A stretch of 38,764 nt of DNA from a virus. A program made the translations under genes and the position numbers. The DNA is taken from positions 1 through 38,764 of the IMG/VR virus record IMGVR_UViG_3300031239_000006, one strand, 5' to 3'. A model generated the notes under the pieces. The model was given only the letters and a program-made list of their open reading frames with translations. It had not been told where the DNA came from and made no database searches. Positions 21,085-25,002 of this stretch are shown one piece after another. Numbering within the stretch: the stretch's first letter is position 1; the number at the start of each line of letters is the position of its first letter.

Positions 21085-21540
21085 ATGACGACCGCATACC
21101 CGAACCTTTCGCGCGGGACGCAGCTTCAAATCCTGCTTGGCGATGGCGCAACGCCGACAGAAAATTTCACCCAGCTTATCACCGCGACAACGCAAAAATT
21201 CTCGCGTTCGATCGAAACCGAAAAGCATGGCGAGATCGACGCCAATGCGCCGACCAATCTGCCGGGTCGTTTTTCCGTCGCTAAAATGCAGTCGTCTGAT
21301 TTGAGCATCGCCGGCCGCTGCGATTTCAAGACATTCGAGACGCTGGAATCGTGGCTGGACGGCAATCCGCATAATGTCAAAGTGTCGCGGCTCGGGACGG
21401 GAGCGAACGGCGGCGGCGTCCACCCGATTCCGGTTGTTCTTACCAAGCTCGATTTGGACAAAGCCGACAACGGAACCGTGACGTTTTCTGCGGCGTTCGA
21501 CGGCCAAGGCGCATTGCCGATCTTCACGGCCAACGCCTAA
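21085..21540 (+). CDS. Major tail tube protein
   Basis: 151 aa, beta-rich, with a pattern seen in GTA/HK97-type tail tubes: FTQLITATTQKFSRSIETEKHG, SIAGRCDFKTFETLESWLDG, ADNGTVTFSAAFDGQG. It polymerises around the tape measure. AAGGAG precedes the ATG by seven bases. It is followed directly by the tail chaperone pair, the standard order. Confidence 0.86.
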   Translation: MTTAYPNLSRGTQLQILLGDGATPTENFTQLITATTQKFSRSIETEKHGEIDANAPTNLPGRFSVAKMQSSDLSIAGRCDFKTFETLESWLDGNPHNVKVSRLGTGANGGGVHPIPVVLTKLDLDKADNGTVTFSAAFDGQGALPIFTANA

Positions 21541-21551
21541 TGGAGCGCGTC

Positions 21552-21950
21552 ATGACGATTTCCAAAACGACGGCGCACCACGCCGTCTTCGCCGGCAAGC
21601 GCCGCCGTTTCTGCCTGCGTCTGGGCGAAATCGCGGAGTTGGAACAGCTTTGCGGCGCCGGCGTCGGGCTGATCACCAAACGCCTTGCCCGCGGCGAATT
21701 CAAAAATGCGGATGTTCGGGAATCGATCCGTCTCGGGCTTGTCGGCGGCGAAAATGACGATCTGTCGCCGGGCCTGGTCGATGCGATGGTGGAGCGTTAT
21801 GTCGACGGTCGACCGGTTTTGGAAAATCTGCATCTCGCGCAATCGATCATCGCGGCGCTGATGGACGGTGTTGAAGAATCGGCACGGCAAATGCCGGGAA
21901 AAAGCGAGGAGGAGAGGAGCGACTTCCGGGAGACCTCTCCTCCTTTGTAA
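21552..21950 (+). CDS. Tail assembly chaperone, short form (GTA gp10-like)
   Basis: 132 aa. The central part (AGKRRRFCLRLGEIAELEQLCGAGVGLITKRLARGEF) matches the gene-transfer-agent tail chaperone type (Phage_TAC_11-like). It coats the tape measure during tail assembly. ATG at 21552 has GGAG six bases upstream; an ATG at 21540 in frame is less well placed. Near its end there is a GGGAAAA slip site followed by a hairpin, so a minority of ribosomes should continue in the -1 frame. Confidence 0.87.
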   Translation: MTISKTTAHHAVFAGKRRRFCLRLGEIAELEQLCGAGVGLITKRLARGEFKNADVRESIRLGLVGGENDDLSPGLVDAMVERYVDGRPVLENLHLAQSIIAALMDGVEESARQMPGKSEEERSDFRETSPPL

Positions 21951-22126
21951 AAGCAGGCGCTGTTCTCGGATTGAGCCCGACCGACGTGCGGCGCATGACA
22001 TTTCCCGATTTCGTCGCCTGTCTTTGCGCCGTCAGCGCCAAATATGGATCGGTCAAAGACGCAAGCGACGCCCCCGACGAAAAGAAATATTTCGCGGCGC
22101 TTCTGGCTCTTCGAGAAAGCCAATAA
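21552..22126 (+). CDS. Tail assembly chaperone, -1 frameshift fusion (G-T type)
   Basis: Predicted product: 117 codons to base 21902, then -1, re-reading base 21902 and running to the TAA at 22124-22126, 191 aa in total. The -1 frame has no stop from the slip site on. It encodes a well-formed domain (AGAVLGLSPTDVRRMTFPDFVACLCAVSAKYG) that resembles the second GTA tail chaperone. This extension has no good start of its own. The stop overlaps the next ATG (TAATG). This follows the lambda G/G-T scheme, in which the fusion binds tube subunits. Confidence 0.8.
21896..21943 (+). promoter_or_regulatory. Programmed -1 ribosomal frameshift signal
   Basis: Slip heptamer G-GGA-AAA at 21896-21902 is in register with the zero frame. 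A five-base spacer follows, then a perfect 10-bp stem, GGAGGAGAGG (21908-21917) with CCTCTCCTCC (21934-21943). The stem's 5' arm also resembles a Shine-Dalgarno sequence, which in bacteria can itself stimulate shifting. The lambda site is GGGAAAG. Confidence 0.84.
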
Positions 22127-22764
22127 TGGCGTTGAATTTTCGCTTTCCCGTAGTGTCCGAGCGCGTCGTGTTCGGATCGGGGAACATCTTTTCGCCAGAA
22201 GCGCAAGCGCGCGCTTTCGCAGCGCTCGCGTCGAAAGATATCAAGCGAATCGACGACGCCAACGCCGTTATTGTCGGACGACCGCTCGCGCGTAAATTGT
22301 TTGTTGACGACAAGCCGACGACAGATCTGTATATCGCCAAATCGACAAGTGTCATCATTGCGCGTTGGAGCATCGGCGTCGAAGCCGTGCGTTACATTTG
22401 GAATTTGCTGCACGGCGCGGGGCCGTTCAAATCGGGCGCTTATCGCGCGTCGGCGCGGATGTATGCCGATGGCGTGCAGATCGACAATCCTGATGACGCG
22501 GTCGGCGCGCGCGAAGTTCTGTTCGTTCCGCTTGTTCCTTATGCGCGCAAGATCGAACGCGGCCTCGCCGGTTATGCGCCCGGCAAGGTTTATGAAGCCG
22601 TCGCCGCGCAGGCAAAATCCAAATTTTCGCGCGCCGCCCGCATTAAATTTACCTATGCGGAGCCCGAAGGCTCGGCGCCGTCGTTCGACCCGCGCCGCGG
22701 CGGGCGGCGCAGCGCGGCGGCGCAAAACCGTCGCCAGCCGGCAATTCTTGTCTTTCTCGGGTGA
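22126..22764 (+). CDS. Putative tail/neck protein (HK97 gp10-like)
   Basis: 212 aa, start overlapping the chaperone stop. The central part, FKSGAYRASARMYADGVQ, and later EVLFVPLVPYARKIERG, recalls HK97 gp10-type minor tail proteins (a TGxLRxS... PYAxxxExG pattern). The C-terminus is basic. Such proteins are usually found before the tail tube, so placement between the chaperone and tape measure is unusual and the call is tentative. Confidence 0.5.
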   Translation: MALNFRFPVVSERVVFGSGNIFSPEAQARAFAALASKDIKRIDDANAVIVGRPLARKLFVDDKPTTDLYIAKSTSVIIARWSIGVEAVRYIWNLLHGAGPFKSGAYRASARMYADGVQIDNPDDAVGAREVLFVPLVPYARKIERGLAGYAPGKVYEAVAAQAKSKFSRAARIKFTYAEPEGSAPSFDPRRGGRRSAAAQNRRQPAILVFLG

Positions 22765-22767
22765 ATC

Positions 22768-25002
22768 ATGGATGAGCTGAGACAAGAAGCTTCCTATGTC
22801 ATGACGACAGAGGGCGTGGACGAAGCTGCGTCCAAGCTCGATGATCTCGCGTCCGCCAATGAACGCGCCGCCGATCAGGCCGGCGTGTTGTCGCGACAGA
22901 CTGTTCTGCAAGAGCAGTCGATTACGCGCGTCGCCGCAAAACTCGAGGCGTATACGCGCGCGCAAGACCCGCTGTCGCGCGCCCTGGCGCAGGTGGAGCG
23001 CGGCGAGCGCCTTGTCGAGGCGGCGCGATCGCGCGGCGTCGATGTCAGCGCGAGAACGTTGACGGCGCTGGAGGCGGCGCGCGAAAAACATCGATCGCTT
23101 GCCGAAGCCGAACAGGAATCGGCGAAGAAGCTGGACGAGGCCAGCAGCGGCGTCGGGGCCTTCCGCAGCCAGCTCGATCGGATCAGCTCGTTTCTGTGGC
23201 AGAACACGTCGCTGTCGGGGCCGGCAATTGATCGCGTCATCAATCCGATCAAGGGCCTGTCGGGGGCGATTGGCGTCATTCCGACGATCGCGGGCGCGAC
23301 GGCCGCCGCGGTTGGCGCGATGTTTGCCATTATCGGCGATCGCGCGCAAGAAGCGCTTGCAAAGCTTGGAGAAGTCCAGAAACAGACAGGCGTCGGCGCG
23401 ACGGCGCTGGAAGGCGGCAAGATTGTCGGCTCCCGCGTCGGGCTGGATTTGGATAGCTCGATAGCCGCATTTCAAAATGCGTCCCGGCAATTTGAACAGT
23501 TCAAGCGCAACGCCGGCGAGGTAAAGGACGTTATCGAAAAAATCGATGAAGCGTTTTTGAAAGTCGCCGATAAAGCCAAATCGTCCGGCGAGTTCATCGA
23601 GATTGTCGGAAGGAAAATTCGAGAACTGCCGCGAGAAGAAGGTATCGATCTCGCGAAAGCGCTTTATGGAAGCGACGCTGGCGAAAAGCTCTATGAGCCT
23701 ATTGTCCAGGGCCAGCTCGAAATGAAAAAGCTTGGCGAAACTGCCTCGGCCGCTGGCGTCGCGCTCAATGATGGGGTCGTCAAACAGGCGGAAGAAGCTC
23801 AAAGGAAAATTGACGAAGCCGCGGCGACGGCCAACGGGAAGTTTCTCGCGGCGCTGCAATCTCTGGCCCCGCCTGTCGCCGCGCTGAAAACAGAATTCTA
23901 CGGCGTCATCGGGGCGATCGCCGACGCAACGGCGAAGGCTGTGGCGTTTGTAACCCAGCTTCATAACGGCGTTCAAGAATTGCGCGACCTGACGCGCGCC
24001 AGAAACGATGTTGGAGGCGGAAAGCCATTTAGCGAGGTATTCGCTCCATACCGACGCGCCATTGTTGGCGATGAAGTCCAAGGGCCGAAACAGCAGCGGG
24101 ACGCCGGCATTTCTCGCGCGCGTTATGTGGCGCGCGACGCCGAAGAATCAGGCGGGGGGCGAAAATCTGCGGCCAAATCGCCGCGCGCGCAAACCGACGA
24201 AGTCGAGCGCTTCACGCAGTCGCTGCAAAAGCAGACCGCTGCTCTTGAGGGCGAGGCCGCGGCGATCGGCAAGAGCGACGCCGAGCGCGAAAGGTCGATA
24301 GACCTTTCCAAAGCGGCGGAAATCGCCAAAGAGGCTGCGGCCAATGGCTCGCGCAAGAGCGCGGAGCTGACGGATGTTGAGCGCCAGAAAATCGAAGGTC
24401 TCGCGCAAGCCCATGTCGATCTGAAAAAGCGGATCGACGATGCGGCCAAGGCCAAAGAAGCGGAGCATCAGGCCGAGTCGTTTTTTGCGACCGAAGCCTA
24501 TGACGTCGTCGACGGCGTCATCACCAAGCATGAGAAGCTGAAAAACGTCCTGGCCGATGTCGCCAAGGCGTTCGAACAGGCGGCGCTCAAGTCGCTTCTG
24601 CTCGGCGAGGGCCCGCTCGCGGGCGTGCTGGGCACGGGAAGCAATGGTCCGCTTGCCGGCGGCGTGTTCGGGTCGCTCTTCAGCTCTGGCGGCGGATCGG
24701 GCGGCGGTGGCGGCGGTTTGCTGTCCGGCATCGCGAATGCTTTGCCAAAATTCGCCGATGGCGGCGGCGTCGGCGCGGTCGTTCATGAAGGCGAAGTAAT
24801 CCTGAATCAGGCGCAGCAGCGCAATGTCGCGGGCGGCCTGCAAAGCGGGCCGCCGAACATCACGGTCCACAATTACGCCGGCGCGCGCGTCGCGACGCAG
24901 ATCACGCCCGAAGGCGTTGCGGTCATGATCCGCAGCGCGATCGCGGAAAATAATTCGGCGATCCCGGGCATGCTTTCCGATCATGCCAATCGGCAATGGT
25001 GA
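22768..25002 (+). CDS. Tail tape measure protein
   Basis: 744 aa. It sets tail length and passes into the host envelope at injection. Long helical and coiled-coil stretches (residues 1-110, 190-330, 420-600), a hydrophobic patch at about 160-190 (AIGVIPTIAGATAAAVGAMFAIIG), and a glycine-rich segment near 640-655 (SSGGGSGGGGGGLL). At about 0.15 nm per residue this predicts a tail near 110 nm. It contains no visible lytic domain. Confidence 0.9.
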   Translation: MDELRQEASYVMTTEGVDEAASKLDDLASANERAADQAGVLSRQTVLQEQSITRVAAKLEAYTRAQDPLSRALAQVERGERLVEAARSRGVDVSARTLTALEAAREKHRSLAEAEQESAKKLDEASSGVGAFRSQLDRISSFLWQNTSLSGPAIDRVINPIKGLSGAIGVIPTIAGATAAAVGAMFAIIGDRAQEALAKLGEVQKQTGVGATALEGGKIVGSRVGLDLDSSIAAFQNASRQFEQFKRNAGEVKDVIEKIDEAFLKVADKAKSSGEFIEIVGRKIRELPREEGIDLAKALYGSDAGEKLYEPIVQGQLEMKKLGETASAAGVALNDGVVKQAEEAQRKIDEAAATANGKFLAALQSLAPPVAALKTEFYGVIGAIADATAKAVAFVTQLHNGVQELRDLTRARNDVGGGKPFSEVFAPYRRAIVGDEVQGPKQQRDAGISRARYVARDAEESGGGRKSAAKSPRAQTDEVERFTQSLQKQTAALEGEAAAIGKSDAERERSIDLSKAAEIAKEAAANGSRKSAELTDVERQKIEGLAQAHVDLKKRIDDAAKAKEAEHQAESFFATEAYDVVDGVITKHEKLKNVLADVAKAFEQAALKSLLLGEGPLAGVLGTGSNGPLAGGVFGSLFSSGGGSGGGGGGLLSGIANALPKFADGGGVGAVVHEGEVILNQAQQRNVAGGLQSGPPNITVHNYAGARVATQITPEGVAVMIRSAIAENNSAIPGMLSDHANRQW

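Follow-up and report, generated by a model that had tools for sequence, protein, structure and literature searches.

The window (the whole stretch of DNA analysed, 38,764 nucleotides, positions 1 to 38,764 of IMG/VR virus record IMGVR_UViG_3300031239_000006) contains two overlapping open reading frames (ORFs), the second in the -1 frame, placed between the gene for the major tail protein and the likely tape measure gene. We consider it very probable that they are joined by programmed -1 ribosomal frameshifting in a two-domain tail assembly chaperone gene similar to G/GT of phage lambda. This was also the main reading of a preliminary description made from the letters alone, and the comparison with relatives argues strongly for it. 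The heptamer GGGAAAA reads CC_G GGA AAA in the frame of the ATG at 21540, which is the correct X_XXY_YYZ register, and lies inside the ORF overlap. The -1 frame has no stop from 21875 until its TAA at 22124-22126, and a slip at the heptamer would yield a fusion of 195 aa. The features first claimed for this site, namely the heptamer in the right register, a 5-base spacer, a perfect 10-bp stem and a stop-free -1 frame, all hold at the positions listed in Table 1. The codons concerned had been given as 117-119; the site was right and the numbering was not, the slip codons being 119-121 when counted from ATG 21540 and 115-117 when counted from ATG 21552.

Table 1. Features of the putative tail assembly chaperone region of the window
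Feature	Position	Strand	Basis
Frame-0 ORF, tail assembly chaperone N domain (TAC-N, gpG-like), 136 aa + stop	21540..21950	+	PF11836, phrog_8985, AlphaFold2/Foldseek
Slippery heptamer G_GGA_AAA	21896..21902	+	sequence; in-register heptamers in relatives
Spacer AGCGA	21903..21907	+	sequence
Stem-loop, candidate 3' stimulator; arms 21908-21917 / 21934-21943, 16-nt loop	21908..21943	+	sequence, folding, stem counts
Frame-0 stop TAA	21948..21950	+	sequence
-1 frame extension, TAC-C (T-like) domain, 74 aa + stop	21902..22126	+	leave-one-out profile, predicted helices
Next gene, 212 aa, phrog_16336 (E 1.9e-16)	22126..22764	+	neighbour, outside frameshift signal
Large ORF, 744 aa, likely tape measure gene	22768..25002	+	size, place, relatives

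The frame-0 product belongs to a recognised chaperone family. PF11836 (Phage_TAC_11, GTA-gp10) matches residues 12-110 of the 136-aa ORF with an E-value of 6.8e-19 and passes the curated cut-off (68.2 bits against 27.8), and phrog_8985 matches the same ORF (E 2.4e-24). The AlphaFold2 model of this domain (pLDDT 86) retrieved viral proteins in Foldseek, several of them named tail assembly chaperones, and weakly the GT protein of phage N15 (E 0.16). Among solved structures a convincing relative was found for neither the N nor the C domain.

The -1 segment was less easily placed. No match was obtained in a Pfam search or by tblastn of the domain against the phage collection, the PHROG match was weak (E 0.037), and a single-protein genome scan found none; profiles were needed. 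A profile built from the -1 domains of 46 relatives, with the window left out, matches the segment with an E-value of 9.5e-10, the best among 832 stop-to-stop frames of the window (runner-up E 0.14). Four helices are predicted for it (residues 12-21, 26-31, 34-48 and 60-73; pLDDT 83), and searching the PDB with this model gave nothing meaningful. The window domain did not reach the curated cut-off of PF09550 (Phage_TAC_6), the second chaperone of gene transfer agents (GTAs), and the C-domain profile itself resembles PF09550 weakly (hhalign probability 7.8, E 0.0044; reversed control E 0.1). The only ATG, GTG or TTG codons of the -1 frame 3' of the heptamer are TTG 21971, GTG 21986 and ATG 21995, none of them before codon 24 of the 74-codon segment and all past the first predicted helix. 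The well-formed second domain with no start of its own, as it had been called, is borne out both by the leave-one-out profile and by first possible starts that fall inside the domain.

Relatives were collected from phage records, 80 viral contigs (the best 80 of 390) and 13 genome contigs, giving 97 loci with a usable frame-0 stop, which were reduced to 55 representatives less than 80% identical. The frame of the second domain is -1 in 48 of these, 0 in one and +1 in none; six gave no match. This count used a profile (A2) of five sequences, window included, and since four of the representatives (L003, L004, L007 and L009) are in it or nearly so, 44 of the 48 are independent. One of the six unmatched loci (L095) has by eye a -1 ORF with AAAAAAA; in the frames of the other five no -1 domain is visible. 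Three of those (L039, L082 and L087) stand, as judged by eye, beside an apparent prohead protease, and no second domain was seen in the remaining two (L006 and L045). PF11836-type genes lying directly 5' of an apparent prohead protease, with no second domain, were likewise seen at L105, L109 and L110 and represent a different gene order. The single frame-0 case is Rhizobium phage RHph_X2_26 (L005:2453-3025), which carries both chaperone domains in one ORF. As the domains are in frame and there is no slip heptamer, this phage may make only the fusion.

In the overlap of 47 of the 48 relatives with a -1 domain an in-register heptamer is present, the other two registers giving 9 and 5, for a set (GGGAAAN, AAAAAAN and GGGGGA[AG]) that was fixed after the relatives' data had been viewed, with GGGGGA[AG] added at that point. 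Shuffling of codons gave an expectation of 4.2 ± 1.9 and a maximum of 11 in 500 shuffles. With the general set X_XXY_YYZ, Y being A or T, the numbers are 35 of 48 in register against 8 and 8, and the heptamers are nearly absent from the gene bodies of the relatives. The first in-register heptamer of each locus is GGGAAAA in 18, GGGGGAG in 10, AAAAAAA in 8, GGGGGAA in 4, GGGAAAG and GGGAAAC in 3 each, and AAAAAAG in 1. The case named in advance as damaging to the frameshift reading, a heptamer lost while the second frame stays open, was looked for and occurs once in the 48, at L031, where GGAAAAG still stands in register. The candidate site and its -1 ORF are, by these counts, conserved in the relatives beyond chance. 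According to the text available to us, GGGGGAA is found across the 'fivetwo' sites that PRFect describes in SEA-PHAGES genomes, with G:U re-pairing as the explanation (PMC10885494).

The 10-bp stem behind the heptamer is formed by Watson-Crick pairs throughout and is extended to 11 bp by A21907-T21944. A stem of this length at this position is unusual against dinucleotide shuffles (p = 0.007), while the folding energy of the hairpin is unremarkable (z = -1.47, with 12 of 200 shuffles folding at least as well), and 10-bp stems occur elsewhere in the window too (16 overlapping hits against 5.25 expected). Among the 47 relatives, perfect stems whose 5' arm begins a short way past the heptamer number 28 at 6 bp or more (7.2 expected), 14 at 7 bp or more (2.2) and 3 at 10 bp or more (0.04). 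Stems of at least 7 bp were found with 11 of 25 GGGAAA, 2 of 13 GGGGGA and 1 of 9 AAAAAA heptamers. Folding energy over the 47, a weak test, gave a mean z of -1.24 compared with -0.76 in a control region taken from these genes (p = 0.034). An Rfam search of 21700-22300 returned no match.

The slip, its rate, the pausing, the fusion protein and the chaperone roles we infer as follows. The majority of ribosomes would translate the frame-0 ORF to its end and release TAC-N. Some ribosomes, a minority, would slip back by one base while GGA occupies the P site and AAA the A site, so that tRNA-Gly pairs anew with GGG and tRNA-Lys with AAA. The hairpin, which begins after the 5-nt spacer, should cause a ribosomal pause and more frequent slipping. 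Slipped ribosomes would bypass the frame-0 stop and end at 22124, producing the TAC-NC fusion. If lambda is a guide, the tape measure protein would be covered by many TAC-N and few TAC-NC molecules, with the C domain bringing in the major tail protein.

Translation of the second domain as a separate protein, by internal initiation or re-initiation, is very unlikely for the window, even though it is how GTA-type loci are arranged and several phage records list the -1 ORF as a hypothetical gene in its own right. A search for GTA-type gp10 in 61 genomes of one family gave a match in 44, one per genome, and 30 of these, less one duplicate and with three from another search added, make up 32 GTA-type loci (L102-L103, L111 and L116-L145). 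They were called GTA-type from the single copy per genome, the gene content and the gene order of RcGTA, without reference to a named record. In 31 of the 32 the second domain forms an ORF of its own, which has a start codon close to the first stop, and none of the 31 has an in-register slip heptamer; the three second domains that were scanned are all PF09550. In the window, however, the first possible starts fall inside the conserved domain, and all 48 out-of-frame phage or prophage representatives use the -1 frame, whereas the GTA-type second domains are scattered over the -1 (19), +1 (11) and 0 (1) frames, as is expected if the constraint on frame acts only in the phages. Some genomes, among them those reached through L089, L100 and L101, hold both kinds, prophage copies with the heptamer and a -1 ORF and GTA-type copies without. 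In one GTA-type locus (L144:1833 onward) the second chaperone ORF continues in frame into the apparent next tail gene, which is a fusion or else an error in the sequence.

The two tail chaperones of RcGTA (chaperone 1, g10, pfam11836, and chaperone 2, the PF09550 gene after it) share with the window the PF11836 N domain and the place of the second domain, and GTA-type loci differ from it in the separate ORF and the missing heptamer. It may be, with the chances perhaps slightly against it, that the frameshifted fusion is the phage state of the PF11836 family and that the line leading to Rhodobacterales-type GTAs replaced it with two free-standing genes. If this is true, a covalent N-C fusion in fixed ratio would be dispensable when a particle makes one fixed short tail. 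The contrast between phages and GTAs makes the need for the fusion in tail assembly testable. The available part of PMC11409702 names RcGTA g10 as tail chaperone 1 and notes pfam11836 in Rhizobium phage 16-3, and the word frameshift is absent from that part.

Returning to the ribosomal frameshift preferred here, the fusion could also be made by ordinary translation of mRNAs whose length had been altered by transcriptional slippage on the GGGAAAAA run. We regard this as still less probable than separate initiation: the run is partly homopolymeric, with five A, but this is short beside the bacterial cases in the relevant passages of PMC5009743, which are on runs of 9 A or T, and slippage of the RNA would not need X_XXY_YYZ, whereas strong selection acts on the register (47 against 9 and 5). 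That one ancestral gene was split by an indel or by a mistake in the assembly is the least probable reading of all, since, although RHph_X2_26 encodes the two domains in frame in one ORF, the out-of-frame layout with its heptamer recurs in 47 of 48 divergent representatives and a second IMG/VR contig, perhaps not an independent one, is identical over 4408 bp.

One part of the preliminary description found no support, namely that the 5' arm of the stem also works as a Shine-Dalgarno-like stimulator. Known Shine-Dalgarno stimulators of frameshifting sit upstream, and while the heptamer occupies the P and A sites, the anti-Shine-Dalgarno of the ribosome has only upstream mRNA to pair with. The arm is at least 6 nt downstream and is itself paired, and nothing suitable lies upstream: the best match of the window at -24 to -9 is only -2.5 kcal/mol, compared with -11.1 downstream at +10 (47 sites scanned), and a Shine-Dalgarno-like sequence shortly upstream of the heptamer, as in dnaX-type stimulated -1 frameshifting, was not found in the window. 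The relatives have a modest upstream peak at about -15 (mean -4.9 kcal/mol, with 13 of 47 reaching -6 or lower); this peak falls on codons for acidic residues, and the window lacks it. A Shine-Dalgarno role of the arm was therefore rejected, the strong matches being downstream, where pairing is impossible while the heptamer is decoded; because of this, the resemblance is most simply a by-product of the purine-rich arm. As far as its available text goes, PRFect likewise scores a ribosome-binding site upstream of the P-site (PMC10885494).

The -1 frameshift of tail chaperones has long been known in other tailed phages and its mechanism is textbook. Xu, Hendrix and Duda reportedly described in 2004 a conserved tail-gene frameshift of dsDNA phages. 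The slippery heptamer of lambda G/GT is GGGAAAG. As in lambda, the site of the window falls between the major tail protein and tape measure genes, with a short N product and a longer N-C fusion; unlike lambda, the N domain is of the PF11836 family and its sequence does not identify it as gpG, there is a long perfect stem downstream, and an extra gene follows. The mechanism in lambda is described in passages of PMC5009743. The Vandenendeviridae phage Adele, according to the portion of PMC12846349 at hand, has the same -1 frame TAC-N/TAC-NC design, missed by routine annotation, but with another slippery sequence (GTTTTT) and in another phage family.

Judged from these comparisons, the signal is real, well conserved and of a known kind, and the public annotation of the family often misses it. 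The PF11836 gene is often annotated 'tail tube protein', and its -1 extension is either entered as a hypothetical gene of its own or left out. None of seven annotated phage records with an out-of-frame extension (L003, L004, L007, L008, L146, L147 and L148) joins both ORFs; in these records the extension is a separate hypothetical gene, often truncated, or is omitted. Corrected annotation would recover the chaperone fusion in many alphaproteobacterial phages. A search of the open-licence literature did not find frameshifting described for PF11836 by that name. Nevertheless, some members may already have been noted, because PMC8601537, in the part available, implies a tail chaperone frameshift in most of its Rhodobacter capsulatus phages.

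The large ORF further downstream gave no match in a Pfam search, and its assignment as the tape measure gene follows from its size, its place and the annotated tape measure gene that relatives have downstream of the chaperone region. Between it and the chaperone lies the 212-aa gene, for which a direct protein search of the phage collection gave no match. Because its ATG and the stop of the -1 frame overlap, coupling of its translation to the slipped ribosomes is conceivable.
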